A stretch of 59,815 nucleotides of DNA from Ruminococcus sp. Lineage in GTDB: Bacteria; Bacillota; Clostridia; Oscillospirales; Ruminococcaceae. Below, piece by piece: positions 44,231 through 59,815 of this stretch. The stretch spans positions 1 through 59,815 of the forward strand of contig JAFUXL010000026.1 of NCBI GenBank assembly GCA_017470905.1. Reading direction: 5' to 3'. The position numbers were made by a program, and so were the translations under genes. The stretch's first letter is position 1. Each line of letters begins with the position of its first letter. Below the pieces are notes generated by a model that saw only the letters and a program-made list of their open reading frames with translations, searched no databases and was not told the origin of the DNA.

Positions 44231-44243
44231 CATTCACTCCAAA

Positions 44244-44870
44244 TCAGGAATTATATTTGTTCATCGCCTCGTCCGTTCTGCCCTGAACCATAAGCTTTAT
44301 GCATTCACAGGCATTTTCTGCGGCGGTGTCGAGCTTTGCCAAATCCTCTTTGCCGAATTTTCCGAGAACCCATTTTGCAAGGTCATAATCGGGGTGAGGC
44401 TTTTTTCCCACGCCCATTTTAATCCTCAGAAAATCCTCGCTGCCCGTGAGTTCTATAATGCTCCTTATGCCGTTATGACCGCCGTGGCTGCCTTTTCTGC
44501 GTATTCTGAGCCTGCCCGGTTCGAGGGAAATATCATCGTATATGACGATAAGATTTGATGTGTCAAGCTTATAGAAATCAAGAGCCTGCACGACAGCCTC
44601 ACCGCTGTTGTTCATATATGTAAGCGGCTTCATCAGGATACAGCGTTTGCCCTCCACAGTAATTTCTGCGGTTTTGCTTTTGAATTTAAGGCGGTTTATA
44701 TCCTCGCCGAGACTTTTTGCAAGCTTATCAGCCGTAAAAAATCCTGCATTATGCCTTGTGTTGTCATATTCCATTCCGAAATTTCCCAGACCTGCGATGA
44801 CATATTCTATTTTACCTCTTTGTGTCTGCGAATTTGCGGAAATCCTGTCGAAAACTTCAAAAATACTCAT
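44244..44870 (-). CDS. pth: Peptidyl-tRNA hydrolase
   Basis: Releases tRNA from peptidyl-tRNA dropped by ribosomes. 208 aa. GLGNFGMEYDNTRHNAGF (catalytic His), KPLTYMNNSGEAV, and DDISLEPGRLRIRRKGSHGGHNGIRSI are diagnostic. It has about 20 extra N-terminal residues before the usual start, but AAGGAGA sits just before the ATG at 44870, supporting this start. First gene of the pth-mfd operon. Confidence 0.96.
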   Translation of the reverse strand: MSIFEVFDRISANSQTQRGKIEYVIAGLGNFGMEYDNTRHNAGFFTADKLAKSLGEDINRLKFKSKTAEITVEGKRCILMKPLTYMNNSGEAVVQALDFYKLDTSNLIVIYDDISLEPGRLRIRRKGSHGGHNGIRSIIELTGSEDFLRIKMGVGKKPHPDYDLAKWVLGKFGKEDLAKLDTAAENACECIKLMVQGRTDEAMNKYNS

Positions 44871-44897
44871 AAAAATTATCTCCTTTCTTCAACAGAT

Positions 44898-44926
44898 ATT
44901 ATATCACAGAAAACCAAAAAAATCAA
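44898..44926 (-). promoter_or_regulatory. Promoter of pth-mfd
   Basis: Minus strand TTGATT (44926-44921), 17 bp, TATAAT (44903-44898) with extended TGA. Confidence 0.7.
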
Positions 44927-44957
44927 CAGAATAATATTACAAAAACGGAAAGCCGTA

Positions 44958-44986
44958 TTGATAAAAGCCAGCTTTTGTGATACAAT
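44958..44986 (+). promoter_or_regulatory. Promoter of the GTPase-NYN gene
   Basis: TTGATA (44958-44963), 17 bp, TACAAT (44981-44986) with extended TGA. Back to back with the pth promoter, about 30 bp apart. Confidence 0.7.
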
Positions 44987-45023
44987 AAATATAATTATAA
45001 TCTATCTCAAAAGGGGAAATCCT

Positions 45024-47573
45024 ATGAAAAAAATAACACTCGGAATTACTGCCCATGTCGATTCGGGAAAAACCACCCTCGCCGAGTCCATGCTCTACAC
45101 AACAGGAAACATAAAGAAAAAGGGAAGAGTTGACAGCGGCAATTCTTTCCTCGATACTAATTTCATCGAAAGAAACAGAGGAATAAGCATATTTTCACAT
45201 CAGGCTGAAATGACCGTGGGCGATGATGTCATAACCCTCCTCGATACCCCGGGTCACGTTGATTTTTCAGCCGAAACCGAAAGAACCATGCAGGTTCTTG
45301 ACTACGCAATACTCGTCATAAGCTGCACGGACGGCGTTCAGAGCCATACTTCAACGCTCTGGAAACTGCTTTCAAAATATGAAATACCTGTTTTTATATT
45401 CATAAACAAAACAGATTTGACGACCGCCGAACCGTCCTTCATACTCGAAAATATCCGCCGCAAGCTTTCGGAAAACTGCGCTGATTTTTCGGGTACTGAC
45501 AGCGATATATACGAAAGCTGCGCTCTTTGTTCCGAGGATATGATGAATAAATATATCGCCGATGAATTTATACCGGACGAGGATATAATAAACGCAGTCG
45601 CCGAAAGGAGAATTTTTCCGTGCTTTTTCGGCTCTGCGCTGAAAATGCAGGGAATTGAGAAATTTATATCCGCCGTTTCAAGATTTACAAGACAGCCCGA
45701 ACGACAGGAGCAGTTCGGCGCAAAGGTCTATAAAATCTCCTATGACAGCAAGGGGAGCAGGCTGACGCATATGAAAATAATGGGCGGTCAGCTTAGTGTC
45801 AGGGACGAAGTGGAATATATCTCGGACGGCGAAAAATTCAGCGAAAAAATCAGCTCCGTGAGATTTTATTCGGGGGAGAAATTCCGCACCGAAAAATCCG
45901 CCGAAGCAGGCGATATATGCGCCGTAACGGGTCTTGAAAATACATATTCGGGTCAGGGCATAGGCTTTGTGAGAAATTCCGAAAGAGCCGTGCTTGAACC
46001 CGTAATGTCCTACAGGGTGATACTCCCTGATAATATAAATCCTTTCGATGCGCTTAAGGATTTGCGGAGGCTCGAAGATACCGATCCGCAATTGCATATA
46101 GTATGGAATGAAAATTCAAAGGAAATACATATGCAGCTTATGGGTGCAGTACAGATTGAGGTGCTTACCGATATAATAAAGGAAAATTTCGGATATGACG
46201 TGATTTTTGCAAACGGCACGGTTTCATACAGGGAGACAATAAGAAATATTTCCGAGGGCGTGGGGCATTACGAACCGCTGAAGCATTATGCGGAGGTTCA
46301 TCTTCTGCTTGAACCTCTGCCGAAGGGCAGCGGTCTTGTATTCGCTGCGAAATGCCCCGAAGATGACCTTGACCGAAACTGGCAGAGATTAATTCTCACC
46401 CACCTCGAAGAAAAAACTCATGTCGGAATACTCACAGGCTCGCCAGTAACCGATATGAAAATTACCCTCATGTCGGGAAAAGCCCACCTAAAACATACCG
46501 AGGGCGGAGACTTCCGACAGGCAACCTACAGGGCAGTCCGTCAGGGGCTGAGATATGCCGAGAGCGTACTGCTTGAACCGTATTTTGAATACGAGCTTGA
46601 AATACCGTCCGAATATACGGGCAGGGCGATAGCAGATTTACAGCATATGTCCGCTGAATTTGACTCCCCCGAAACCGTGGGCGAATTTTCAATAATAAAG
46701 GGTACTGCTCCCGTCTGTGAAATAAACGGCTATTATCAGCAGGTAATAAGCTACACAAAGGGCAGAGGTCATATAAGCTACACCCCGTGCGGATACAGGG
46801 AATGCCACAATGCGGAGGAGATAATCGAAAATACAGGCTACGACTGTGACGGCGATGTCGAAAATTCTGCGGATTCCGTATTCTGCTCCCACGGAGCAGG
46901 ATTTATCGTCAAATGGAACGAGGTATACAGCCATATGCACCTTCCCTCCTGTCTCAAAAAGAAACACGAAAACGATACCCCGAAGGCAATATCCAAAAAG
47001 ACGGAAAGACCCGATGTTTCTGAAAAGGAATTAATGGAAATATTCGAGAGAACCTACGGAAAAATAAACCGTGACCCCCGAAAGGCTTTCAGCAAAACCA
47101 AAAAGGAATCGGACTATTCAAAGCCCGTAAAGCTCCCCGACTACGAAAAGCCCGATTATCTCATAGTTGACGGATATAATATAATATTTGCATGGGATAA
47201 TCTGAAGAAAGCCGCCGAAGAAAGCCTCGATGCCGCAAGGTCTGACCTGATAAATATATTATCCAATTATCAGGGATATTCGGGATATGAAATAGTACTT
47301 GTTTTCGATGCCTATAAAGTAAAGGGAAACCGCAGACATTCGGAAAAATATATAAACATAAATATAGTCTACACTCAGGAGAACGAAACCGCCGACAGCT
47401 ATATTGAGAAATTAAGCCATGACCTGTCAAAGAAACACCGTGTAAGGGTTGCTACCTCCGACAATGCCGAACAGATGATTATTTTCGGCGGCGGAGCTAT
47501 GAGAATTTCGGCGAATGAATTAAAACTCAATATCGAAAATGCCGAAAAGCAGATGAGAGAAAAAATAAAATGA
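45024..47573 (+). CDS. TetM/EF-G-like translational GTPase fused to a Rae1/YacP NYN nuclease domain
   Basis: 849 aa. Residues 1-640 follow the EF-G/ribosomal-protection layout: G1 AHVDSGKTT (10-18), switch I ERNRGIS, G3 DTPGH (74-78), G4 NKTD (128-131), G5 GSALKMQ (203-209), then domains II-V with SSVRFYSGEK and GRGHISYTPCGYRE. After a basic linker, residues 708-849 match YacP/Rae1 (DYLIVDGYNIIFAW, VLVFDAYKVKG, TQENETADSYIEKL, VATSDNAEQ), with the acidic set D716, D762, D791 and D813 of NYN nucleases. Rae1 cuts mRNA in the ribosomal A site, so the fusion probably acts on ribosomes. The true start is ATG 45024 with AAGGGGAA upstream. Tetracycline resistance is possible but not implied. Confidence 0.88.
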   Translation: MKKITLGITAHVDSGKTTLAESMLYTTGNIKKKGRVDSGNSFLDTNFIERNRGISIFSHQAEMTVGDDVITLLDTPGHVDFSAETERTMQVLDYAILVISCTDGVQSHTSTLWKLLSKYEIPVFIFINKTDLTTAEPSFILENIRRKLSENCADFSGTDSDIYESCALCSEDMMNKYIADEFIPDEDIINAVAERRIFPCFFGSALKMQGIEKFISAVSRFTRQPERQEQFGAKVYKISYDSKGSRLTHMKIMGGQLSVRDEVEYISDGEKFSEKISSVRFYSGEKFRTEKSAEAGDICAVTGLENTYSGQGIGFVRNSERAVLEPVMSYRVILPDNINPFDALKDLRRLEDTDPQLHIVWNENSKEIHMQLMGAVQIEVLTDIIKENFGYDVIFANGTVSYRETIRNISEGVGHYEPLKHYAEVHLLLEPLPKGSGLVFAAKCPEDDLDRNWQRLILTHLEEKTHVGILTGSPVTDMKITLMSGKAHLKHTEGGDFRQATYRAVRQGLRYAESVLLEPYFEYELEIPSEYTGRAIADLQHMSAEFDSPETVGEFSIIKGTAPVCEINGYYQQVISYTKGRGHISYTPCGYRECHNAEEIIENTGYDCDGDVENSADSVFCSHGAGFIVKWNEVYSHMHLPSCLKKKHENDTPKAISKKTERPDVSEKELMEIFERTYGKINRDPRKAFSKTKKESDYSKPVKLPDYEKPDYLIVDGYNIIFAWDNLKKAAEESLDAARSDLINILSNYQGYSGYEIVLVFDAYKVKGNRRHSEKYININIVYTQENETADSYIEKLSHDLSKKHRVRVATSDNAEQMIIFGGGAMRISANELKLNIENAEKQMREKIK

Positions 47574-47650
47574 TTTCTGGCAATCATGTGTTCCGCACAC
47601 ATATGACAGGCGAAACAGAGAAAAAATAACTCGCTTATTTTTGTACCGCC

Positions 47651-47679
47651 TTGACATTTTTTTCATAAGGGTATATAAT
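47651..47679 (+). promoter_or_regulatory. Consensus promoter of the phosphonate operon
   Basis: TTGACA (47651-47656), 17 bp, TATAAT (47674-47679): a perfect sigma-A promoter. The leader of about 95 nt contains a weak hairpin (ACGGTT with AAGCCGT, near 47694-47719). Confidence 0.85.
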
Positions 47680-47779
47680 AAATAAGTAACTACGGTTAAA
47701 CAGGCTGAAAAGCCGTAATCCCCCCAAATAAAACGGGAAAATTAATATAAAATTTTTTATCCGCAAAAGGAGATAAGCA

Positions 47780-49075
47780 ATGAAAACAGTTTACACCTGC
47801 TTCTGCACAGACGTAATTCACGAGGGACACCTCAATATAATACGCAGAGCAAAAGAATACGGCGATGTTATTGTCGGAATACTAAGCGATGAAGCTATGG
47901 TAAAATATAACCGTTTCCCCACCGTTTCATTTGAAGAGAGAGTGAAAATGGTCGAGGACATAGAGGAAGTCTCAAAAACTGTCGTTCAGGAAACCGTCCT
48001 CTATGACGATATAATTGACCAAATCCGCCCCGATTATGTAATTCACGGCGACAACTGGAACAGCGGCCCGATGAAAGCCATAAGGAACAGAGTTGAGAAA
48101 AAGCTTTCGGAATACGGCGGTCAGATTATTGACGCACCCTACACCTATAACGAAAACGTCCACCGCATAGACATGAGAATAAAGGAAAAGCTCGCTATGC
48201 CCGAATTTCGCAGAAAAAGACTGAGACAGGCTATAAAGCTTCGTGGAATTGTAAAGGCTCTCGAAGTACACAGCGGTCTCACGGGTCTTATCGCCGAAAA
48301 GACCTTTGTCGAGAATAACGGCGAATTTGACCAGTTTGACGCAATGTGGATAAGCTCCCTGTGCGACTCCACCGCAAAGGGCAAGCCCGATATTGAACTT
48401 GTCGATATGACATCACGTTTCCGCACCATTGAGGACGTTATGGAGGTAACTACAAAGCCGATAATCTTTGACGGCGATACGGGCGGACTTGCCGAGCATT
48501 TCGTCTATACTGTGAGAAGTCTCGAAAGAATGGGCGTTTCGGCGGTCATAATCGAGGACAAAATGGGTCTGAAAAAAAATTCCCTCTTCGGCACGGACGT
48601 TAAGCAGACACAGGACAGCATTGAGCATTTCTGCGAAAAAATAAGAGCAGGAAAGAAAGTCCAGCTCACTAAAAGCTTCATGATAATCGCAAGAATTGAA
48701 AGCCTTATTCTTGAACAGGGCATGGAAGATGCCCTCGAAAGGGCATTCGCCTATGTAGATGCGGGTGCGGACGGCATCATGATACACAGCAGAAAGAAGT
48801 CCCCCGACGAGATACTCGAATTTTGCGACAAATTCCGTGAGAAAAATACGGATACACCCATAGTTGTAGTGCCTACTACATTCAATACAATCACGGAGAG
48901 CGAACTTAAAGAACACGGCGTTAATGTCGTCATATATGCAAATCAGCTTACAAGAAGCGCATTCCCCGCAATGGAGAATACCGCAAAACAGATACTTATT
49001 CACCACCGTGCAAAGGAAGTCGATGACAGCCTTATGCCCATAAAGGAGATAATCTCCCTTATTGACGAACTTTAA
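47780..49075 (+). CDS. PEP mutase with N-terminal HxGH nucleotidyltransferase domain
   Basis: Rearranges phosphoenolpyruvate to phosphonopyruvate, forming the C-P bond that starts nearly all phosphonate pathways. 431 aa. Residues 1-135 form a cytidylyltransferase-like domain with HEGH (14-17) and GDNWNSGPMKA. Residues 145-431 are the mutase: DGDTGG (231-236) and the defining EDKxGxKxNS motif (259-268), which separates true mutases from isocitrate-lyase relatives. The nucleotidyltransferase lacks a clear C-terminal ISTT-like motif (the segment reads ENVHRIDMRIKEK), so its activity is uncertain. This two-domain layout is known for AepX-type proteins. First gene of the operon; AAAGGAG before ATG. 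Confidence 0.93.
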   Translation: MKTVYTCFCTDVIHEGHLNIIRRAKEYGDVIVGILSDEAMVKYNRFPTVSFEERVKMVEDIEEVSKTVVQETVLYDDIIDQIRPDYVIHGDNWNSGPMKAIRNRVEKKLSEYGGQIIDAPYTYNENVHRIDMRIKEKLAMPEFRRKRLRQAIKLRGIVKALEVHSGLTGLIAEKTFVENNGEFDQFDAMWISSLCDSTAKGKPDIELVDMTSRFRTIEDVMEVTTKPIIFDGDTGGLAEHFVYTVRSLERMGVSAVIIEDKMGLKKNSLFGTDVKQTQDSIEHFCEKIRAGKKVQLTKSFMIIARIESLILEQGMEDALERAFAYVDAGADGIMIHSRKKSPDEILEFCDKFREKNTDTPIVVVPTTFNTITESELKEHGVNVVIYANQLTRSAFPAMENTAKQILIHHRAKEVDDSLMPIKEIISLIDEL

Positions 49076-49088
49076 AATTGGTGATGAT

Positions 49089-49814
49089 ATGCAGCTTGTT
49101 ATATTATCGGATATACACGGAAATGTCTCCGCCCTCAAAAGCGTATTGAATGACGTTTATAAAAATTATTCCCCCGACAGCATAGCACTTCTGGGCGATT
49201 TTATTGACTATGGTATGCGTTCGGATAAAGTCATAGAAATCATAAAAAGTCTCAGTACTCCCGTGATATGCAATATATGGGGAAATCACGAAAGGGCGGT
49301 AGTCGAAAGGGATTATTCGCATTTTTCATCACCGAGGGGTGCGGTATCGGCTGAAAACACAAGGAAAAATTTATCAGCCTCCTCGATTGAATATCTCGAA
49401 AAGCTTTCGGGCAGATGCGGATATGAAGAATTTGAATTTGCAGGAATGAAATTCCTCGCCGTACACGGAAGTCTCAGAGACCCGTACTGGAAAGCCATAT
49501 TTCCGGACGGGGATTTTGACGGATATGAAAAATATGACTATGTGCTTTCGGGTCACAGCCATTATGCACACGCATTTCCAGTTTTCTATCCTGCCGAAAA
49601 TCCCGCATACAGGAATAAAAAACGCACGTTTTTCATAAATCCGGGGTCGGTCGGTCAGCCGAGAAATCATGACCCACGGGCGCAGTATGCCGTCCTTGAT
49701 ACCGAAAAGGGAGTTTTTCTTCTTGCAAGCGAATATGATATAAAATACGAACAAAGTCTTTTCACTGATGACGTTGACCCGTTCTACAGCAGGAGACTTG
49801 AAAAAGGAGTGTAA
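49089..49814 (+). CDS. Calcineurin-like metallophosphoesterase
   Basis: 241 aa. LSDIHGN (D-x-H), GDFIDYG (GDxxD), WGNHE (GNHE), and SGHSHYAH with the late His pair give the full metallophosphoesterase signature with two metal sites. Closest in style to YfcE/ApaH-like phosphodiesterases. Within this operon it may remove phosphate from a phosphonate intermediate or cleave a nucleotide-activated donor; this is inference. The start at 49089 follows GGTGAT and is 13 nt after pepM. Tight spacing (2 nt) to the next gene. Confidence 0.85.
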   Translation: MQLVILSDIHGNVSALKSVLNDVYKNYSPDSIALLGDFIDYGMRSDKVIEIIKSLSTPVICNIWGNHERAVVERDYSHFSSPRGAVSAENTRKNLSASSIEYLEKLSGRCGYEEFEFAGMKFLAVHGSLRDPYWKAIFPDGDFDGYEKYDYVLSGHSHYAHAFPVFYPAENPAYRNKKRTFFINPGSVGQPRNHDPRAQYAVLDTEKGVFLLASEYDIKYEQSLFTDDVDPFYSRRLEKGV

Positions 49815-49816
49815 AA

Positions 49817-50818
49817 ATGAAAGCTTTATACGTTATAAGCGGTGCTGCGGGTATGACGGGAAACGAACTCGCAAGACAGATTTTGAACGGAAACAAAGGC
49901 GCAGTTATCGGTTTTGACAATTTTTTCTGTTCCTCAATGGACACCATAGAGGATATAGTCGGAAACGATAATTTTGACTTTTTTCAGTATGATATAAATT
50001 CAGCCGCACAAATGGCTGAAATACAGTATCTTGTAAACAGGAGAAAATCAGATTTCGACAGGGTTTATTATATAAACTGCGCCGCCGTAGTCCATACAGA
50101 ATATTTCTATTATGTGAATACTACCTACGACACGAATGTAAACGGCATGAGAGTATTTTTACAGCAGGCAATAGCCGTGGGCGCAGATGCATATATAAAC
50201 TGCTCAACCTCCGAAGTCTATTCAATGCAGTCATTCGCAGAGGGCGGAGTTAAAGAAAGCGATTTTCTCTTAATGGCAGATGCGGAACACAGTCAGAGGA
50301 CAAGCTACGCAACAGGAAAACTACTTACGGAATTTTTCATGAAGGATGCAGCCGACAACGGTCTTATAAAGGGGTGTTCGATTAGATTTGCAAATGTCTA
50401 CAGCAAGAACGAAAGATTTGCAAAGCATATTCTTCCGCATATCGTGACAAGCCTTTCCGAAACGGGCAGGGTCGTTCTCCTCGAAAATTCAAAGAAAAAT
50501 AAAAGGACTTTCCTGCATAACAACGACAGCTGTGCATCTGTGCTCAAGCTTCTCGAAACTCCGCAGGCACTTGACGGCACTGTCTATAATGTAGCCACAG
50601 ACGAGGAAATTTCTATCATAGACCTTGTGTATCTCATAGGTGAAAAGCTCGGCATTGAAAAGCCTGAGATAATTTTTGAGGGCTACCGTGAGTCAGACCC
50701 CGAAAGACGTGTGCTGAATACGGAAAAAATCCGCTCACGCACGGGCTGGAAGCCCGAAATATCTCTCTCCGAGGGTATTGACATGATAATACAGTACAGA
50801 AAAGAGAACTGCAAATGA
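49817..50818 (+). CDS. NAD-dependent epimerase/dehydratase (extended SDR)
   Basis: 333 aa. Rossmann GxxGxxG at residues 9-15 (GAAGMTG), catalytic S/T around NCSTSEVY and Y164-x3-K168 (SYATGK). Extended SDRs of this type act on nucleotide sugars such as UDP- or CDP-linked donors. In context it probably supplies the sugar part of the surface polymer, or modifies the activated phosphonate. Its stop overlaps the next start as ATGA, indicating coupled translation. Confidence 0.87.
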   Translation: MKALYVISGAAGMTGNELARQILNGNKGAVIGFDNFFCSSMDTIEDIVGNDNFDFFQYDINSAAQMAEIQYLVNRRKSDFDRVYYINCAAVVHTEYFYYVNTTYDTNVNGMRVFLQQAIAVGADAYINCSTSEVYSMQSFAEGGVKESDFLLMADAEHSQRTSYATGKLLTEFFMKDAADNGLIKGCSIRFANVYSKNERFAKHILPHIVTSLSETGRVVLLENSKKNKRTFLHNNDSCASVLKLLETPQALDGTVYNVATDEEISIIDLVYLIGEKLGIEKPEIIFEGYRESDPERRVLNTEKIRSRTGWKPEISLSEGIDMIIQYRKENCK

Positions 50819-51567
50819 AAAAAGCCTTTATAACCACCGCTGCCGGCATGGCGACAAGATTTTCCGCATCGCTGCCTGCTCCCGTCCCGAAATGCATATA
50901 CACGGACAACAAGCCCGAAAATACCCTGCTTTACAGACTGGTATCCCTTGCGGAGGATTTTGACAGGATAGTAATTGTCACGGGCTTTATGGAAGATAAT
51001 ATCAAAGAATATGCCGAAAAATATCTCCCGAAAGAGATACTTGACAAAACCGTTTTTGTAAGCAATGAACAATATGCGCAGTACGGTTCGGGCTGGAGCC
51101 TGTATCTCGGACTTAAAGCCCTCGAAAATTCGGATGAAAAATACGATGATATAATTTTTGCGGAGGGAGATTTGTATTTCAGCCGTGAGGATTTTGAAAA
51201 AATATGCATAAGCAGGAATGATGTCATAACCGTGAACAATGAACCGATTGAGGCTAAAAAAGCCGTGGCACTCTATTTCGATACGGACAGCAGACCGCAC
51301 TATATATATGACACACATCACGGCACACTCGAAATAAACGAACCGTTCACGGGGATATACAATTCCGCACAGATATGGAAATTCCGTGATGCGGATAAGA
51401 TTTTCCGCATAATGAACGAAATGGGCGAAAAGGCTCATCAGGGTACAAATCTTGTGCTGATAAACCATTATTATCGTGACTGCGAAAATATTGAAATTAT
51501 CCGCATGAATACATGGGTAAACTGCAACACAACGGAGGATTTCAAAAAACTGGACTTTAACTATTAA
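50815..51567 (+). CDS. LicC/PntC-like nucleotidyltransferase
   Basis: 250 aa. The N-terminal AAGMATRF (9-16) is the sugar-nucleotidyltransferase signature AAGxGxRF with a changed spacing, followed by PKCIY, VIVTGFMEDN, NEQYAQYGSGWSLYLGLKAL, FAEGDLYFS, and NVNT-like NTWVNCNTTEDF at the end. This pattern (NEKYxxYxNxxSLYL) is that of LicC choline-phosphate cytidylyltransferases, a group that includes the phosphonate cytidylyltransferase PntC. It probably makes a CDP-phosphonate. One C-terminal motif suggests a metal site DxD is replaced by EGD. Start by ATGA overlap with the epimerase gene. Confidence 0.85.
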   Translation: MKKAFITTAAGMATRFSASLPAPVPKCIYTDNKPENTLLYRLVSLAEDFDRIVIVTGFMEDNIKEYAEKYLPKEILDKTVFVSNEQYAQYGSGWSLYLGLKALENSDEKYDDIIFAEGDLYFSREDFEKICISRNDVITVNNEPIEAKKAVALYFDTDSRPHYIYDTHHGTLEINEPFTGIYNSAQIWKFRDADKIFRIMNEMGEKAHQGTNLVLINHYYRDCENIEIIRMNTWVNCNTTEDFKKLDFNY

Positions 51568-51569
51568 TT

Positions 51570-51607
51570 CATAATTCTTAATTCATAATTCATAATTAAG
51601 AATTATG
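51570..51607. repeat. AT-rich palindrome inside the phosphonate operon
   Basis: CATAATTCTTAAT / ATTAAGAATTATG, perfect 13-bp arms, just after the nucleotidyltransferase stop. Shares CATAATTCATAATT with 1579-1592. It splits the operon into two parts and could be an mRNA processing site or the remnant of a mobile repeat. Confidence 0.55.
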
Positions 51608-51677
51608 CTTTCAGACGAAAAATTATATCTCTTTATTGTAACGCAGATGTATAAATATTAATAACCAGGAGGATATT

Positions 51678-52838
51678 ATGCTTGAAGAAAAATTACTGCT
51701 TTTGACTAAGCATGAAAAAACCAAAATAATGATAATCGGTCTCGGCAGCGTGGGAAATTATCTGCTTGACTATCTCCTCTCAACAGGTGATGAGAATATC
51801 GAGATAATTACCGCAGGAAGAAATGCCGAAAAAATGCAGTGCGATGTAAATATCGCAAGGGTTTCATCTCTTATCCGCCGTCAGAACAGGACAAATGTAA
51901 TCGTAGAGGGCGGAGTTGACCTCGAAAATATCGACAGCATTGCGGAATGTCTCGAAAAACATCAGCCCGATATTATCGTCAATACAAGCCGTGTGTATGC
52001 AGGTCTTAAATACGGCTCAATCTCATGGAAAAACGTCAGGGCTTACGGTATCTGGATACCGCTTTCGATAAAATACATCAGGAATATAATGCTCGCCTAC
52101 AAGAAAGCCGACTGCAAGGCGATAGTTATAAATACGTCATACTCGGACGGCACTATCCCGTGGCTTAAATGTTCGGGAGTTCCCTATCCCGATTTCGGCA
52201 GCGGAAACCTCAACCACCTGCTCCCGAGAATTAAATTCGCTGTTGCAGCCGAAAAAGGCATATCCGATTTCTGGAATATAAATGCCGCAATCGCAACAGC
52301 TCATTTCCACGATGTAGTCATAAGCAAGGAGGGTCAGAACGAGGGCGTTCCCCAACTTCTGAGAGTTTTCTACAAAGACAGGGAAATTGAAATAAACCAG
52401 GACGATATACTCAAAAAGGCTGTAATCTCAATGCCCGTTGACGCTAAGAGAAATATGATGAACGCATCAAGCAATTTCGATATTATACAATGCATTCTCC
52501 GTGCGGTAAGGACAGGCTCGGAGGAGATTTTCCACTCCCCCGGAGCATTCGGCGAGATAGGCGGCTATCCCGTATTCGTTGACGGTGCGCTTCTCACAGC
52601 CAAGATAGATACCTCTGTTTTCAGCATGGAAGAAATGCGTGAAAAGAACAGACAGTCCCTCTATCTTGACGGTATAGAGAGAATTGAAAACAGCTGCATG
52701 ACCTATACGGACGAACTCATAAACAAGACAAAGCGTGCATTTTCCGCAGACCTCCCGAAGACCGTCCATTTCGATGAAATTGACCGTGCGGCAGACTATA
52801 TAATAAAAAATATAATCGAACCGCAGCTCAGAAGATAA
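51678..52838 (+). CDS. Rossmann-fold protein of unknown function in the phosphonate operon
   Basis: 386 aa. GLGSVGNYL (21-29) is a GxGxxG dinucleotide-binding motif, followed by an acidic or amide strand end AGRNAEKMQ and VNTSRVYAG. Later parts (SGVPYPDFGSGNLNHLLPRIKFAV, HSPGAFGEIGGYPVFVDG) do not match a family I can name; the general shape is of saccharopine-dehydrogenase or homoserine-dehydrogenase type. In place next to the decarboxylase it could reduce or oxidise phosphonoacetaldehyde, replacing the missing aminotransferase. AGGAGG before ATG. Confidence 0.7.
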   Translation: MLEEKLLLLTKHEKTKIMIIGLGSVGNYLLDYLLSTGDENIEIITAGRNAEKMQCDVNIARVSSLIRRQNRTNVIVEGGVDLENIDSIAECLEKHQPDIIVNTSRVYAGLKYGSISWKNVRAYGIWIPLSIKYIRNIMLAYKKADCKAIVINTSYSDGTIPWLKCSGVPYPDFGSGNLNHLLPRIKFAVAAEKGISDFWNINAAIATAHFHDVVISKEGQNEGVPQLLRVFYKDREIEINQDDILKKAVISMPVDAKRNMMNASSNFDIIQCILRAVRTGSEEIFHSPGAFGEIGGYPVFVDGALLTAKIDTSVFSMEEMREKNRQSLYLDGIERIENSCMTYTDELINKTKRAFSADLPKTVHFDEIDRAADYIIKNIIEPQLRR

Positions 52839-52847
52839 GGAGTTAAT

Positions 52848-53972
52848 ATGAAGGCTGAAAAACTCGCCGAAATAATCGGCTCGGAATTTTATACGGGCGT
52901 TCCCGACTCACAGCTGAAAGCCCTCTGCAATTATCTGATTAATACCTACGGCACAGACCCTAAACACCATATAATCGCCGCAAACGAGGGAAACTGCACC
53001 GCTGTCGCCGCAGGCTATCACCTTGCAACAGGAAAAATCCCCGTTGTGTATATGCAAAATTCAGGGGAAGGCAATATCATAAATCCCCTTGCATCACTTT
53101 TGAGCGATAAGGTATATGCTATACCGACCGTGTTTATAATAGGCTGGAGGGGCGAACCGAATGTCCATGACGAACCCCAGCATATATATCAGGGTGAAGT
53201 CACAGTTAAGCTCATGGAGGATATGGACGTCGAGACTTTCATAATCGGAAAGGATACTGCCGATGATGAGGCAGTATCCGCTATGGAGCATTTCAGGACT
53301 GTTCTCGGCAAGGGAAAATGCGCTGCGTTTATCGTCCGCAAGGGTGCGCTCTCATACGATGAAAAGGTAATTTACAAAAATGACAACAAAATGCTCCGTG
53401 AGGATATAATCAGCCATATCACAGCCGTTTCGGGCGATGACCCGATAGTCTCCACCACGGGAAAGACAAGCCGTGAGCTTTTTGAAATACGGGAAGCGAA
53501 CTCACAGCCGCATAAATTTGATTTCTTAACAGTCGGCTCTATGGGTCACAGCTCGTCAATTGCCCTCGGAATAGCCATAAACAAGCCCGGTACAAAAATA
53601 TGGTGCATTGACGGTGACGGCGCAGCCCTTATGCATATGGGTGCTATGGCGGTCATAGGCTCGGTAAATCCGAAAAATCTCGTGCATATCATCATAAACA
53701 ACGGCGCACATGAGACAGTAGGCGGTATGCCTACCGTGGCGAATGATATAAATATAACAGGTATCGCCAAATCCTGCGGCTATCAGTACGCCGTTTCCGC
53801 CGACAGCTTTGAAAGCCTTGACAGAGAACTCAAAGCCGCAAGGGAGAGAAACTCTTTGAGCCTTATCGAAGTGAAATGCTCGATAGGAGCAAGGGACGAC
53901 CTCGGCAGACCTACCACAACAGCCCTCGAAAATAAAAGGAATTTCATGGAATATTTAGAAAATCTCGGATAA
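52848..53972 (+). CDS. Phosphonopyruvate decarboxylase
   Basis: TPP enzyme that turns phosphonopyruvate into phosphonoacetaldehyde, making the unfavourable PEP mutase step proceed. 374 aa, the short AepY/Ppd form. The catalytic Glu47 lies in AANEGNC, phosphonate-pocket residues in MQNSGEGN and WRGEPNVHDEPQH (the latter diagnostic for the family), and the TPP-Mg motif is GDGAALMHMGAMAVIG...NNGAHETVGG (256-293). Nine bases after the preceding gene with AAGGAG upstream. The pair of PEP mutase and this enzyme makes the pathway assignment firm. Confidence 0.94.
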   Translation: MKAEKLAEIIGSEFYTGVPDSQLKALCNYLINTYGTDPKHHIIAANEGNCTAVAAGYHLATGKIPVVYMQNSGEGNIINPLASLLSDKVYAIPTVFIIGWRGEPNVHDEPQHIYQGEVTVKLMEDMDVETFIIGKDTADDEAVSAMEHFRTVLGKGKCAAFIVRKGALSYDEKVIYKNDNKMLREDIISHITAVSGDDPIVSTTGKTSRELFEIREANSQPHKFDFLTVGSMGHSSSIALGIAINKPGTKIWCIDGDGAALMHMGAMAVIGSVNPKNLVHIIINNGAHETVGGMPTVANDINITGIAKSCGYQYAVSADSFESLDRELKAARERNSLSLIEVKCSIGARDDLGRPTTTALENKRNFMEYLENLG

Positions 53973-53986
53973 TCAATGCTTTTGGA

Positions 53987-54015
53987 TTGACAGAGAGATG
54001 TAATTGTGATAAAAT
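53987..54015 (+). promoter_or_regulatory. Second promoter of the phosphonate region
   Basis: TTGACA (53987-53992), 17 bp, TAAAAT (54010-54015) with extended TGA. Drives the small membrane protein and the YidC fusion. Confidence 0.75.
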
Positions 54016-54031
54016 ATATTGAAAACTTTAT

Positions 54032-54053
54032 TTCCCTCGCTGCGGCGGGGGAA
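54032..54053 (+). other. Leader hairpin before the small membrane protein
   Basis: TTCCCTCGC-TGCG-GCGGGGGAA, 9 pairs with one wobble, directly upstream of the GGAGG site. It may terminate transcription from the upstream operon or modulate translation. Confidence 0.5.
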
Positions 54054-54072
54054 TTTAACGGAGGAAAATAAA

Positions 54073-54327
54073 ATGATAAATCTGTTCTTAAACGGCAGCG
54101 TTGCCGCCTATATCGACCCTGCGACAACAAGCTATATCATTCAGATAGTTATAGGTGTCGTTATCGCCCTCGGAACTGTCATGGGAATATTCTGGAGCAA
54201 GATAAAAAGGCTCTTCAAAAGAAACAAGGACGAAGAAACCGCTCCCACGGTCATGAAGTCGGACACCGAAGGAAAAGCCGAAATTACCGCCGCCGACCTC
54301 CTCAACGATGACGATGACGACGAATAA
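54073..54327 (+). CDS. Small membrane protein with acidic C-terminus
   Basis: 84 aa. AYIDPATTSYIIQIVIGVVIALGTVMGIF forms one long hydrophobic helix preceded by the YIDPxTxSY pattern seen in small proteins of polysaccharide and teichoic-acid loci, then a basic patch KIKRLFKRNK and an acidic tail ending in DDDDDE. Probably a partner of the following transferase in the membrane. The ATG at 54073 has GGAGG 8 nt upstream. Confidence 0.75.
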   Translation: MINLFLNGSVAAYIDPATTSYIIQIVIGVVIALGTVMGIFWSKIKRLFKRNKDEETAPTVMKSDTEGKAEITAADLLNDDDDDE

Positions 54328-54338
54328 GAGGATTTGAA

Positions 54339-56372
54339 ATGGGAGTAATAATAAAGATACTCGGCACGGCTCTCGGCTGGATTATGAGGGGCTGTTTCAG
54401 CATAACAAGAAATTACGGCATAAGTATTATCGTATTTACATTTATAACCAAGATAATTCTCTTTCCCCTGAGTATTCTAACGCAGAAGAACTCAATCAAA
54501 ATGGTACGGCTCATGCCCGAAGAAAATGCACTTAAAATTAAATATATTGACGACAAGGATAAGCTTGCGGACGAAAGACTTGCGCTGTATAAAAAATACA
54601 AGTACAATCCGATGTTAAGCTCCGTTCCCCTGCTTTTGCAGATACCGCTTGTCCTCGGTCTGGTATATGTAATATACCGCCCTATTTCATATGTACTCGG
54701 CATTGATGAAACCACCGTAAATCAGTTAAGGGAATGGCTTGTATCGCTTATCGGTGCGGCGAATGTTCAGGACAACTCATATCAGGTTGAAATAATAAAC
54801 CGCATACAAAGCGGAATACTCCCCGATTTCACGGGAGATTTCATAGACAGGATAAACAGTCTGAACATGAATTTCCTCGGCTTTGACCTTGCGGCAACGC
54901 CCTCATTCAAGGAAAATTATATATTACTGCTTATACCGCTTCTTTCGGGAATAAGCGCATGGCTTCTCTGCTATGTGCAGAATAAGATAAATGTATTGCA
55001 GGTAACTCAGAATAATCTCACAAAGGCGGCAACTACAATTTTTATGGTTGCATTTTCGGCGTATTTTTCGTTCCTCGTTCCTGCGGGAGTGGGTCTTTAC
55101 TGGATATTCGGAAATTTATTCGCCATACCGCCCATGTATCTGCTGAATATAATCATTCCGCCGAAAAAATACGTTGACCTCGATTATCTCAATAAAATCA
55201 ACGAACAGCGTATCGAGAAAGAGAAAGTACATAAAAAATACAAAGTCCGTGAAAAAGAGGATTACAAGAGATTTTTCGCCGTTGAAAAAATGGAGCTTAT
55301 GATATATTCCGAGCAGAGCGGATTTTACAAGTACTTCAAGGATATTATCGACTATGTGTGCGAACATTCGGATATTCAGATACACTATGTCACAAGCGAC
55401 CCCGATGATATTATCTTCAGGGACGAAAGAAAACAGATAAGCTCATACTATGTTGCATCAGACCAGTATCTCGTTCCGCTTTTCATGAAGCTTGACTGCA
55501 AAATGTGTCTGCTGACCGTTCCCGACCTCGAAAAATACCACCTCAAGCGTTCGAGAATTAACAAAAATGTTGAGTATGTTTTCGTCAGCCACGGCATGGG
55601 AAGCACCGCACTTACACTCCGAAAGGGCGCACTCAACTGGTATGATACGGTATTCTGCCCCGGAGTTGATACATTCAACGAGATAAGAGATGCGGAGGAA
55701 CTCTATCAGACACCCAAAAAACGCCTCGTCGAAACGGGTTATCCCCTGATTGACGAGATGCTCGCACAGTACGAAAGCACGGAGCATAAACAGAACGAAA
55801 TTCCGAAAATCCTTATAGCTCCCTCTTGGCAGCCCGATAATATAATTGATATGTGTGCAGAACAAATTCTCGACAGTCTGAAAAATACGGACTATGAAAT
55901 AATTCTCCGTCCGCACCCCCAGCAGGTAAGACATCAGCCCGAAAAATTCGAGATATTCAAGGAAAAATACAAGGACTGCAAAAATATCGAGATACAGACA
56001 GATTTCTCCTCGAATAACCCGATAATGCAGTCGGATATATTAATAACGGACTGGTCTGATATTTCATGGGAATACGCTTTCGTCACAAAGCGTCCGATAA
56101 TCTTCATCAATACCCCCATGAAGATCATGAACCCCGAATGGGAAAAGATAAAGACAAAGCCCATAAATATTTCCCTCAGAAATGAACTCGGAAAGGCTCT
56201 CGATGTGGAGCAGGTAAGTCAGATAAATGATGTAATCAGGGATATGTTAATCCGCCGTGAAGAATATCACGAACAAATCGACAGAGTTTTCCACGAACAC
56301 GTTTACAATATCGGAAAAAGCAAAATCCTCTGCGGAAAATATGTCATCAAATCCATACAGAATAAAGTTTAA
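54339..56372 (+). CDS. YidC/Oxa1 insertase fused to CDP-glycerol glycerophosphotransferase
   Basis: 677 aa, two complete domains. Residues 1-275 are a YidC-type insertase: FTFITKIILFPL in the first core helix (Lys38 where SpoIIIJ-type proteins carry the groove Arg), LYKKYKYNPMLSSVPLLLQIPLVLGLVYVIYRP (the YidC KYxxNP...P..LQ.P hallmark), and helices near 192-212, 228-248 and 252-274. Residues 280-310 are a charged linker. Residues 315-677 are a TagB/TagF-like transferase: HGMGS (418-422), RPHPQ (524-528) and LITDWSDISWEYA (568-580), which carry the catalytic histidines and the CDP site. It follows the small membrane gene after 11 nt. It probably transfers a CDP-linked glycerol- or phosphonate-phosphate group at the membrane. 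Confidence 0.9.
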   Translation: MGVIIKILGTALGWIMRGCFSITRNYGISIIVFTFITKIILFPLSILTQKNSIKMVRLMPEENALKIKYIDDKDKLADERLALYKKYKYNPMLSSVPLLLQIPLVLGLVYVIYRPISYVLGIDETTVNQLREWLVSLIGAANVQDNSYQVEIINRIQSGILPDFTGDFIDRINSLNMNFLGFDLAATPSFKENYILLLIPLLSGISAWLLCYVQNKINVLQVTQNNLTKAATTIFMVAFSAYFSFLVPAGVGLYWIFGNLFAIPPMYLLNIIIPPKKYVDLDYLNKINEQRIEKEKVHKKYKVREKEDYKRFFAVEKMELMIYSEQSGFYKYFKDIIDYVCEHSDIQIHYVTSDPDDIIFRDERKQISSYYVASDQYLVPLFMKLDCKMCLLTVPDLEKYHLKRSRINKNVEYVFVSHGMGSTALTLRKGALNWYDTVFCPGVDTFNEIRDAEELYQTPKKRLVETGYPLIDEMLAQYESTEHKQNEIPKILIAPSWQPDNIIDMCAEQILDSLKNTDYEIILRPHPQQVRHQPEKFEIFKEKYKDCKNIEIQTDFSSNNPIMQSDILITDWSDISWEYAFVTKRPIIFINTPMKIMNPEWEKIKTKPINISLRNELGKALDVEQVSQINDVIRDMLIRREEYHEQIDRVFHEHVYNIGKSKILCGKYVIKSIQNKV

Positions 56373-56374
56373 TA

Positions 56375-56400
56375 AAAAGCCGTCCGTTGTGACGGCTTTT
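56375..56400 (+). terminator. Terminator of the phosphonate/transferase region
   Basis: AAAAGCCGTC / GACGGCTTTT, perfect 10-bp arms, 6-nt loop, followed by GTTTATT. Confidence 0.92.
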
Positions 56401-56542
56401 GTTTATTATATATAAATTATTATGTTGAAATTTATTTATTCATACAAAGTTTTTTAAAAATGATAAAAAGTAGGGCATTTTTCGACATTTATATATAGGA
56501 CGGAAAAATTATTCCGTCAAATATTTCAAAGGAGTGATTTTT

Positions 56543-58093
56543 ATGTTGAAAAAAATCATCGCTGCAATGACAGCAGCCCTCACTGTCGGATGTACAAACG
56601 TACTCAATGCCAGTGCTTTGAGTGAAATCGAAACCGCCGAGCATTTCGGAGGCAGAACCATAACAAATGTATCGGCTGCGGAAACGAATTTTCAGCTCCC
56701 CGATACCGACCCCACACACGACAAAAAATACACGGAATATGTAACAAATCTTGAAAGCTACGGCTATAAGGCTATGCCAGAGCTTGCCGAACCGTTCGCA
56801 AAATGTGCCGAGACAGGTCATGCTGTGAACGTCTACGGAAAAGAGAGCGAATATGCATGTTATTCCTACATGGTAGAGGCATCTGACGAACGTTTCTACA
56901 CAACCATATCAGTCACAGAGAGAAATATCAACACCGCAGACATAGAAAACGAAATAAGAGACCTCATAAATAGCGAGAATGTAACGGTACAGGCAAGCAC
57001 CCCGGCAACCAAAACTTCTTTCACCATAAACTTTGAGCATTTATCCCCGGAAGAGAGCTATGAAATATCGCTGAAAGTTGCCGATATGCTTGACAAAGAC
57101 TACAGCATAACAGATGCCGCCGAATATTTCGGCTATCATGTATTCTACGACCTCACGGTATGTTATGACCGGTTTGAGAGAATAGAAAACACAAAAAGGA
57201 CAGCGCATGAAGTCACACTCGAAGAGCTTTCAGAATTTAACAAAATTCTCGCCGAAAACGACATAAAGGCTCATTTTGAGACATCACAGACAGATGCAAA
57301 ATACGGACTTGTAATATACGACGAAGGACTTACACATGACGAAATACGCAGCTATGCCTTAAAAATAGAGGATTTGACAGGCTTGTCAATGTACATGGCA
57401 GGAACTGACCTCGCACGTTCGCATTACGGTGCAGTCGTGAACTTTGCCGCAGCCTACAAAATCCCTGCCGAAATAAGGGAACAGATTGCCGCAGGCGTTA
57501 CCGAAATTCCCGTCGTAATCGGCTATGAGTATTCGTCTATGGATACGATAATCGAAAACTATGTCTCCAAAGTAAACGACTACAAGAAGCTTATCGGAGG
57601 AAGATACAAATACTCCGACGAGGAGAGAAAAAAGCTTATCAAAGACTTCAAGGCGCAGACATGGGAAAGCCTCGTATACGAGAATAGAGAACGTGCCGTG
57701 AAATATACTGCCAAGGATTTGGGTCTTACGCCTGATGATGTTAATTACTGGACGGAAAAATCCGAATTTTTATGCACAGTCACCCCTGAACAGCTTGAAA
57801 CTATGGCGGACAGCTCCTACGCAAGGACGATACGTCTTTTAGCGGACGGCGAGGACATTGACAGGGATAATCAGGCATTCTATGACAGCTTTTCAGCCGT
57901 TGAAGGAGATGCAAACGGCGATAAAAATGTCAGCATCTCCGACGCTGTACGCATATTGCAGTACGTTTCAAATCCCGAAAAATATGCCCTCCCTCCGACA
58001 CTGTTAATAAATGCCGATATAGCCGACAATGACGGTGTTACCGCACACGATGCGGCTGTTATCCAGCAGATGGACGCAGAAGCTTCGCAGTAA
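56543..58093 (+). CDS. Secreted dockerin-containing protein 1
   Basis: 516 aa. Signal peptide MLKKIIAAMTAALTVGC...NASA. The main region (about 40-450) has two repeat-like halves with NxxxLESY/YxxK, AGVTEIPVVIGYEY, and a C-terminal part FLCTVTPEQLETMADSSYARTIRLLADG that looks like an inhibitor-I9-type propeptide fold; I do not recognise it as a known enzyme. The last 62 residues are a dockerin: loop 1 DANGDKNVSISD, loop 2 DIADNDGVTAHD, both F-hand-like, with loop 2 losing the ligand at position 3. Attaches to a cohesin on a scaffoldin. ATG 56543 has AAAGGAG upstream. Confidence 0.8.
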   Translation: MLKKIIAAMTAALTVGCTNVLNASALSEIETAEHFGGRTITNVSAAETNFQLPDTDPTHDKKYTEYVTNLESYGYKAMPELAEPFAKCAETGHAVNVYGKESEYACYSYMVEASDERFYTTISVTERNINTADIENEIRDLINSENVTVQASTPATKTSFTINFEHLSPEESYEISLKVADMLDKDYSITDAAEYFGYHVFYDLTVCYDRFERIENTKRTAHEVTLEELSEFNKILAENDIKAHFETSQTDAKYGLVIYDEGLTHDEIRSYALKIEDLTGLSMYMAGTDLARSHYGAVVNFAAAYKIPAEIREQIAAGVTEIPVVIGYEYSSMDTIIENYVSKVNDYKKLIGGRYKYSDEERKKLIKDFKAQTWESLVYENRERAVKYTAKDLGLTPDDVNYWTEKSEFLCTVTPEQLETMADSSYARTIRLLADGEDIDRDNQAFYDSFSAVEGDANGDKNVSISDAVRILQYVSNPEKYALPPTLLINADIADNDGVTAHDAAVIQQMDAEASQ

Positions 58094-58132
58094 ATCAAAA
58101 ATATTAATTACTGATTATAAGGAATGATTTTT

Positions 58133-59632
58133 ATGATTAAAAAAATTATCGCAGCACTCACAGCAATTCTCACTGTCGGCTGTACAAGCGTATTCAGTGT
58201 ATCGGCGGCAGACCTCCCCGATACCGACCCCACACACATCGGGGGCTACATAAGCCGTCTGGAAAAGATTGAAGTCTCTTCGCAGAAAGTCTCCCCCGAA
58301 CTTTTTGAAAAAATAAAGGCTTGTTTCAAATTCATCTATGACTCAGGGGAAATTGTGAATATCTATGCAAAACAGGAGCTCATGACCCGCAATCCCGATG
58401 ACCTCTACCCTGATGAACCCGACCTCTATGACGAAATAATCATCACCCTTGAACTTGAAACTCCCGCAATTACGGTGATAGGCTTGTTTGACGAGGATAT
58501 TGACCAGGATGTGCTGACAGAAAATATAACGGCATTTATCGACAATGAGAACGTGACTTTAACCACAACCAGAAATTCAGAGGACGAAATGATGGTCGGT
58601 ATGCACTTCAACGGCATATCCGATGAAGAAATCAACGATATTTCCGTGAAAACTGCGGATATGCTCAGTAAAAATTACAATATTTCACGCTTTACGGAGA
58701 CATTCGGCGGACGTTTATTTGAAGAATGGGGCTTGTACTATAATCAGCCGTTTTTTGCAAGCGAACAGCCTGTAAAAATAACCGCCGAGGAAATACGCAA
58801 CGCAGGTGTGAAGGCTGAATTTGACCCCATGACGGGCAATATAACTCATGATAAGGGTCTGAGCATGGAGGAGATAATCGGAAATATCTTCAAAATTAAT
58901 GAGCTTACAGGTTTAGAACCGTATTTTATGTCATCAATCGCAGAGCTGCCATACTGTACAACCCTTGACCTTTCATCGAAGTATTTGCAGTATAAAATCC
59001 CCGATGAGGTAAAGAAACAGATTAACGCAGGAGTTGCGGAAATTTCCGTTGTAATTACATACAAAGATATGTCATTCGACAAGATAAACGAAAGCTACAC
59101 CTCCGAGGTAAACAATTATAAAAAGCTTATCGCAAGACAGTCCGCCTCAAAATACACTAACGAACAGAAGAAACAGCTTATCGAGGATTTCAAGACGAAA
59201 ACATGGCAGACACTTGTGACAGATGCAAGAGAAAGTGCCGTCAAATCCGCCGTAAGAGGTCTGGGAGTTACCATTGACGACGTTGATTACTGTGTCGGAA
59301 AATCGGAGTTTGTATGCACCCTCACCCCCGAACAGGTAAATACCGCCTCGCTCCTCACTCAAATCAAATCAATCCGCCTTTTAGCGGACGGCGATGACAT
59401 AGAGGCTGATAACAGGGCATTTTACGAAAGCTTTTCGCCGATTGAGGGCGATGCGAACGGCGACAGGAATGTCAGCATATCCGATGCTGTACGCATATTG
59501 CAGTACATGGCAAATCCCGAAAAATATGCCCTCTCCCCGACACTGCTTGTAAATGCCGATATATCAGACAATGACGGAGTAACCACGCACGATGCGGCTG
59601 TTATCCAGCAAATGGACGCAGGACTTTTATAA
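58133..59632 (+). CDS. Secreted dockerin-containing protein 2 (paralogue)
   Basis: 499 aa, a tandem duplicate of the preceding gene after 39 nt. Shares the signal peptide pattern (KKIIAA.TA.LTVGCT), PDTDPTH, YKKLIxxR..KY, ACTLTPEQ-type segment and the dockerin (439-499) with loop 1 DANGDRNVSISD and loop 2 DISDNDGVTTHD. The central part has diverged and lost some segments. The first loop is almost identical between the copies, so the dockerin is under stronger constraint, or was converted, compared with the body. Both copies probably bind the same cohesin. Confidence 0.8.
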   Translation: MIKKIIAALTAILTVGCTSVFSVSAADLPDTDPTHIGGYISRLEKIEVSSQKVSPELFEKIKACFKFIYDSGEIVNIYAKQELMTRNPDDLYPDEPDLYDEIIITLELETPAITVIGLFDEDIDQDVLTENITAFIDNENVTLTTTRNSEDEMMVGMHFNGISDEEINDISVKTADMLSKNYNISRFTETFGGRLFEEWGLYYNQPFFASEQPVKITAEEIRNAGVKAEFDPMTGNITHDKGLSMEEIIGNIFKINELTGLEPYFMSSIAELPYCTTLDLSSKYLQYKIPDEVKKQINAGVAEISVVITYKDMSFDKINESYTSEVNNYKKLIARQSASKYTNEQKKQLIEDFKTKTWQTLVTDARESAVKSAVRGLGVTIDDVDYCVGKSEFVCTLTPEQVNTASLLTQIKSIRLLADGDDIEADNRAFYESFSPIEGDANGDRNVSISDAVRILQYMANPEKYALSPTLLVNADISDNDGVTTHDAAVIQQMDAGLL

Positions 59633-59647
59633 GCAATCCACAACTCC

Positions 59648-59815
59648 TTATATATGAAACGAGGGGCTGACATTATGGTGCTGTTGACAAACCGGTATTT
59701 TTGCAATAAAAAACAGCCCGAATAGCTTTCGGACTGAAAAAATAGCTGAATATTGATGTAAAAATAGTATCTCTACAAGCCTTTTTAAATTCAAGGCGCA
59801 TGCCGATAAGAGGCA
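59648..59815 (-). pseudogene. Possible 3' end of a transposase-like gene running off the window
   Basis: A minus-strand frame is open from the window edge to a TAA at 59648-59650 and begins CLLSACALNLKRLVEIL, a pattern seen at the C-termini of some DDE transposases. It passes through a terminator hairpin, so the true stop may lie differently or the frame may be chance. Only 55 residues are visible; treat as tentative. Confidence 0.25.
59714..59736 (-). terminator. Minus-strand terminator at the right edge
   Basis: Minus strand CAGTCCGAA-AGCTA-TTCGGGCTG with one wobble pair, followed by TTTTTTATT. It implies a minus-strand gene whose end lies near or beyond 59815. Confidence 0.75.

Follow-up and report, generated by a model that had tools for sequence, protein, structure and literature searches.

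The locus described here raises the question of what is made from phosphonoacetaldehyde once a carbon–phosphorus (C-P) bond has been formed. It occupies positions 47651–56400 of a 59,815-nucleotide stretch of DNA from Ruminococcus sp. (GCA_017470905.1, contig JAFUXL010000026.1), the whole of which is referred to as the window. Eight plus-strand genes lie between 47780 and 56372, all confirmed present among the open reading frames (ORFs) of the window. They encode phosphoenolpyruvate (PEP) mutase, phosphonopyruvate decarboxylase, four proteins whose genes are termed the module (MPE, SDR, DUF6564 and Ross in the list below), a small membrane protein and a fusion of YidC and TagF domains. The best reading is that of a real, conserved phosphonyl-tailoring system, a variant of surface tailoring through cytidine monophosphate (CMP)-activated phosphonates. 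Taken as a whole, with every step after phosphonoacetaldehyde being one that we infer, the view of the block as a phosphonyl-tailoring operon is moderately probable. The features are as follows.

47651–47679, plus strand: sigma-70-type promoter-like site, TTGACA-N17-TATAAT, 12 of 12 consensus positions (a consensus match only)
47780–49075, plus strand: PEP mutase (PepM), C-terminal, with an N-terminal Fom1-type cytidylyltransferase domain (TIGR02320, 5x3d match, motifs)
49089–49814, plus strand: calcineurin-like, YfcE-like metallophosphoesterase (MPE; PF12850)
49817–50818, plus strand: extended short-chain dehydrogenase/reductase (SDR; Epim) of the NAD-dependent epimerase/dehydratase type (PF01370)
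50815–51567, plus strand: DUF6564 nucleotidyltransferase, LicC-related (PF20202, LicC 1jyk)
51678–52838, plus strand: Rossmann protein (Ross) with a predicted lactate/malate-dehydrogenase (LDH/MDH) fold
52848–53972, plus strand: phosphonopyruvate decarboxylase (Ppd; TIGR03297)
53987–54015, plus strand: second promoter-like site, TTGACA-N17-TAAAAT, preceded by TG, 11 of 12 consensus positions (a consensus match only)
54073–54327, plus strand: small membrane protein (smTM) with the motif YIDPATTSYIIQ and an acidic tail
54339–56372, plus strand: YidC-TagF fusion (YTF; YidC and Glyphos_transf domains)
56375–56400, plus strand: terminator-like hairpin directly after the YTF gene

The block begins with the first promoter-like site (47651) and ends with the hairpin (56400). 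An earlier reading of this DNA from its letters alone (the sequence-only reading) had listed the same eight genes, and that part of its list stands; the N-terminal cytidylyltransferase (CyTase) domain of PepM and the second promoter-like site were absent from it.

The C-P steps leading to phosphonoacetaldehyde are firm by family assignment, as the sequence-only reading had proposed. PepM scores 420 bits against TIGR02320 (cut-off 320) and carries EDKMGLKKNS, in agreement with the motif EDKxxxxxNS, and Ppd scores 458 bits against TIGR03297 (cut-off 313). Judging from these curated families, PEP mutase would form phosphonopyruvate and Ppd would convert it to phosphonoacetaldehyde. Related gene sets are on record: the available excerpts describe a four-gene cluster with PEP mutase and phosphonopyruvate decarboxylase in M. 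millerae ZA-10, possibly serving wall polysaccharide (PMC4987999), and a cluster of PPM, PPD and a phosphonoacetaldehyde-reductase-like gene in marsupial isolates of Methanocorpusculum (PMC10035134).

The four module genes recur across phyla. Scanning genomes with four aligned Ross proteins gave 123 relatives, and the module counts refer to the best 80 of these 123, with gene presence determined by tblastn. The complete set of MPE, SDR, DUF6564 and Ross occurs in 77 of these loci, of which 75 share gene order and strand; of the 80, 66 have PepM, 67 Ppd, 70 at least one of the two and 63 both. The carriers are Ruminococcus and other Clostridia, Treponema, Fibrobacter and Methanobrevibacter, together with single loci named Thermoplasmata, Salinivirgaceae and Synergistales. 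Butyrivibrio sp. X503 (L200) and Roseburia sp. 1XD42-69 (L147) are carriers available in culture. The sequence-only reading had staked its case on a neighbourhood conserved beyond this genome, and such conservation was found, with a six-gene core across phyla and the complete eight-gene form in five more Ruminococcus loci (L121–L125); a further Ruminococcus locus (L126) has all except smTM, with the fusion placed before PepM. Fifteen module genomes were checked for PepM, comprising ten without PepM or Ppd in the locus and five others. It was above cut-off in 14, including nine of the ten, the sole exception being a Treponema bin (L144), which rules against a module working without phosphonates.

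Evolutionary distances, compared over 53 loci, separate the module from its companions. SDR, Ross and DUF6564 correlate among themselves (rho 0.74–0.80), as do PepM and Ppd (0.63), with values of 0.18–0.38 across the two sets, and MPE agrees about equally with both (0.52–0.62). Two pairs of loci have identical Ross proteins (L094 and L174, L095 and L194), reducing 84 module loci to 82, and both L094 and L174 are included in the 53. This decoupling from PepM and Ppd argues that the substrate of the module is what any PepM-Ppd pair supplies, and the four genes are read here as a putative mobile tailoring module joined to various generic PepM-Ppd pairs. In a rapidly built tree of 77 Ross rows, ten Methanobrevibacter rows group together within a mainly Bacillota part, a placement that suggests transfer, many of the records being metagenome bins.

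For nucleotidyl activation, which the sequence-only reading had also anticipated, the block offers two candidates, the CyTase domain fused to PepM and DUF6564. The fused domain (CTP_transf_like in Pfam, residues 11–97) has 5x3d, a phosphoenolpyruvate phosphomutase entry, as its best PDB match (116 bits), which we take to be the Fom1 cytidylyltransferase domain. The CyTase-PEP mutase domain order is shared with Fom1 of fosfomycin biosynthesis, but the window CyTase keeps only HEGH, GISST being replaced. Among 63 readable module-linked PepM copies (partial rows L154, L163 and L191 excluded), 53 have only HxGH, ten only GISST and none both. GISST loss is also seen outside the module and is therefore not special to it: 32 of 34 non-module family copies have HxGH only, one has both motifs and one neither, and of three second PepM copies in module loci two have HxGH only and one both. 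The initial reading had the fused CyTase activating the phosphonate in the manner of Fom1; the motif counts weigh against it, the effect of GISST loss on activity being presumed, and we infer that the domain may be weak or have another role.

DUF6564 is the likelier enzyme to use cytidine triphosphate (CTP), because the fused CyTase is without one of the two Fom1 motifs in all 63 copies. Encoded three genes after PepM, it matches PF20202 with 286 bits, and its nearest solved structure is LicC (1jyk), a weak match limited to the N-terminal half (E 7e-4). Scores above 100 bits occur in two of 148 family genomes, both with the module. On this family evidence DUF6564 is a probable CTP-dependent activator, which would form a CMP-phosphonate.

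The closest described system is the Pnt pathway. In Rice et al. (2019, PMC6697681), fusion to other domains is reported for about 60% of PEP mutases, the partner being a nucleotidyltransferase in nearly every case; PntC makes CMP-2-aminoethylphosphonate (CMP-AEP), and the Fom1 domain makes CMP-2-hydroxyethylphosphonate (CMP-HEP). The Pnt pathway as given there shares with the window PEP mutase and Ppd, a nucleotidyltransferase joined to PepM or encoded close to it, LicC-type activation and a cell-surface transferase. The window differs in having no AEP aminotransferase, in having DUF6564 instead of PntC and in adding SDR, MPE and the LDH/MDH-fold enzyme, the article giving no term match for an epimerase, a metallophosphoesterase or a dehydrogenase.

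Between phosphonoacetaldehyde and activation, the module would reduce and modify the phosphonate. Ross is a probable dehydrogenase on the basis of its modelled structure, for which comparison predicts an LDH/MDH fold, and it would likely be NAD(P)-dependent and act on phosphonoacetaldehyde or phosphonopyruvate. Residues H209 and N152 are invariant even in rhizobial and cyanobacterial homologues of 25–29% identity; R184 is invariant in 40 module copies and lost in distant homologues. H209 and R184 sit at positions plausible for the catalytic histidine and the substrate arginine of such enzymes. A weak hhalign alignment places R184 opposite an LDH arginine, presumably the substrate-binding residue, and the LDH histidine opposite E218 rather than H209. 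Ross differs from lactate and malate dehydrogenases in being about 70 residues longer and in giving no Ldh_1 profile match at E 0.05, and sequence-level support for the relation failed (hhalign probability 9.8%, with 8 LDH sequences from 20 loci). The sole match above cut-off is Sacchrp_dh_NADP over residues 17–104 (26.2 bits, cut-off 25.1), and comparison with 8deb gave E 0.11; a relationship to saccharopine or carboxyspermidine dehydrogenases was ranked behind the LDH/MDH fold. Ross is rare at phylum level, as PepM and DUF6564 are in the family samples: in 299 genomes the one strong match is the window genome itself, with seven weak ones. On rhizobial plasmids (L236–L238), distant Ross homologues adjoin alanine-racemase-like (alr-like) and TIGR01459 HAD genes; two of the three also have a gene for a DMT transporter. 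These neighbours suggested no function.

SDR and MPE would carry out further steps on the phosphonate intermediate. The former resembles nucleotide-sugar dehydratases and UDP-glucuronate decarboxylases, and has GxxGxxG, TSE and YxxxK invariant in four of four sequences; in MPE, D8/H10, G36/D37, N66/H67/E68, H126 and H156/H158 are invariant in four of four.

The last gene bears on where the product is placed. In Pfam, YTF consists of 60KD_IMP/YidC (residues 26–270) and Glyphos_transf (residues 453–590), a domain content in keeping with the membrane-embedded transferase of CDP (cytidine diphosphate)-dependent type that had been proposed from the letters. Both folds are kept and the conserved TagF histidines are present; TagF and TarL with CDP-ribitol are among the leading matches in a fold comparison made with VIA. 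K38, H418 and an RPHP motif are invariant across 30 aligned proteins, K38 presumably sitting where YidC carries its groove arginine. The protein differs from TagF/TarL CDP-polyol transferases in its fusion to a YidC domain, and GT-B epimerases reach nearly equal Z. It also differs from Gram-positive YidC (Bacillus halodurans, 3wo7), having a C-terminal transferase and being additional to another YidC, found alongside it in 12 of 12 genomes checked. In the plasmid collection there was no full YTF, three records matching the YidC part only.

Among the matches listed, PepM co-occurs with the fusion in 17 of 26 fusion genomes, compared with 30 of 370 others (Fisher p 1.5e-11). These 26 are the rows reaching the TagF part, the list's own tally of 384 referring to YidC alone; G264, with a stop in the TagF part, is excluded, and G392 and G382, which run off contig ends, count among the 26. 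Fusion and module adjoin twice in the tree, once in the window clade and once, apart from it, in L066. The smTM protein, scanned in a form starting at 54019, has no Pfam or NCBIfam match; of 27 fusion/TagF loci, counting the window, 14 have a member of its cluster close to the fusion, and the cluster is present in five of the six Ruminococcus relatives L121–L126. In neighbour cluster c4, 11 of 15 members were Pfam-scanned. Gene order and PepM co-occurrence make a role as phosphonate transferase plausible: in Ruminococcus, YTF, which its YidC domain would anchor in the membrane, would pass the phosphonyl group on to a glycan or teichoic-acid-like acceptor that is itself membrane-bound. In many other module carriers this task may fall to LicD-family proteins encoded nearby.

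What the module produces is where the readings diverge. Tentatively, and at somewhat less than an even chance, the mobile four-gene module would lead to a surface phosphonate not yet described and distinct from both AEP and HEP, by way of an LDH/MDH-fold phosphonate dehydrogenase and the DUF6564 cytidylyltransferase, the YidC-type fold serving in Ruminococcus as the membrane half of the transferase. Plain HEP, as the sequence-only reading had guessed, with Ross replacing an iron-type alcohol dehydrogenase (Fe-ADH) as phosphonoacetaldehyde reductase, is a rival reading, though a rather doubtful one. No AEP aminotransferase is encoded in the block, as had been noted earlier, and the window genome (74% complete) holds only partial matches of 25–29%; a Fe-ADH phosphonoacetaldehyde reductase is likewise lacking in the block, with a best match of 28% in that genome. 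Consistent with HEP are also the near-constant company of Ppd (67 of 80 module loci) and the surroundings of PepM in the family. A profile scan of 396 family genomes gave 47 with PepM above cut-off, and the surroundings of PepM were covered for 42 of the 47, window included (G085, G201, G244, G289 and G336 absent); the PepM ORF was missed in L079, L089, L090 and L120, leaving 37 loci besides the window. A cluster with Fe-ADH as its one Pfam-scanned member lies near PepM in 20 of these 37, and one with a class V aminotransferase as its scanned member in five. However, Fe-ADH is also found in five of the 80 module loci and the aminotransferase in three of the 80; L131 combines Fe-ADH, AEP aminotransferase and module, and L160 has Fe-ADH with two PepM copies. 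Among the six L121–L126 genomes a close aminotransferase is lacking throughout, and just one, that of L126, encodes an Fe-ADH of 61% identity outside the locus. Moreover, three additional conserved enzymes would be superfluous for HEP. The occurrence of AEP- and HEP-type enzymes as extras in a few module copies points weakly to a third product, and it could be redundancy. Another route would have phosphonopyruvate, which is oxaloacetate's phosphono-analogue, reduced to phosphonolactate for activation, with Ppd on a separate branch. It would suit the LDH/MDH fold of Ross and the alignment of its R184 with the LDH arginine, but that alignment is weak, R184 is lost in distant homologues, and the frequency of Ppd (with PepM in 63 of 80 loci) would be unexpected if the carboxylate were retained; this route is improbable.

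A module that instead builds a nucleotide-activated acceptor or sugar to carry the phosphonate, which the fused CyTase or an unseen enzyme would activate, is unlikely. The resemblance of SDR to nucleotide-sugar enzymes and the lack of an obvious role for MPE and SDR on a two-carbon phosphonate speak for it, yet the module goes with PepM (70 of 80 loci have PepM or Ppd, and nine of the ten remaining genomes have PepM), DUF6564 is nearest to LicC, and the fused CyTase lacks a motif in every readable copy. As to the transferase, YTF may be merely adjacent to the phosphonate genes and use a CDP donor to transfer glycerol phosphate or a different polyol phosphate, which is rather unlikely, though less so than the activated sugar. 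The second promoter-like site, preceding smTM and YTF, weakens the claim of a single operon and would give YTF a promoter of its own, which counts against the tailoring operon as read here. PepM is not above cut-off in nine of the 26 listed fusion genomes, 13 of 27 loci have sulfatase-superfamily membrane enzymes of one cluster in the vicinity of YTF, and the CDP-polyol transferases among its leading fold matches fit such a donor. Set against this are the co-occurrence with PepM, the two separate joinings of fusion and module, and the presence of PepM or Ppd within the examined stretch of nine of the 26 listed fusion genomes, window included, in clusters with AEP aminotransferase (L081), Fe-ADH (L071, L078, L079) or the module.

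Several PepM loci contain further unusual genes. Radical-SAM proteins fused to a cytidylyltransferase domain, which we regard as reminiscent of Fom3-type chemistry, adjoin PepM and Ppd in L073 (2578–4005, minus strand; the copy analysed with Pfam) and L086 (from 1293, plus strand), and also adjoin a YidC-TagF gene or a contig-cut TagF gene. One protein of L066 (13305–14834, minus strand), adjoining Fe-ADH, combines NTP_transf_3, CTP_transf_like and a weak partial PEP mutase match. Proteins of 475 amino acids with 28% YidC-like similarity lie close to the PepM loci of L111 (13563, minus strand) and L113 (1484, plus strand). In the window itself, a TetM-type ribosomal-protection-like GTPase, below the displayed tet_protect cut-offs, is encoded at 44751–47573 (plus strand), its C-terminal stretch, in our estimation, resembling a NYN/YacP-like domain. 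Directly after the operon, 56534–58093 and 58124–59632 (plus strand) encode similar tandem secreted-type proteins, each with a terminal dockerin domain. Rfam gave no match at the gathering threshold across 44000–59815.

In listings of open-access papers no description of the four-gene module or of the YidC-TagF fusion was found. The module offers a testable enzyme set for what follows once the C-P bond is formed, in a pathway common to rumen bacteria and methanogens. It also suggests a likely role for the uncharacterised family DUF6564, and the YidC fold is seen joined to a cell-envelope transferase. If gut microbes do coat their surfaces with phosphonate, this would be relevant to the flow of phosphorus, to recognition by the host and to the binding of phages.

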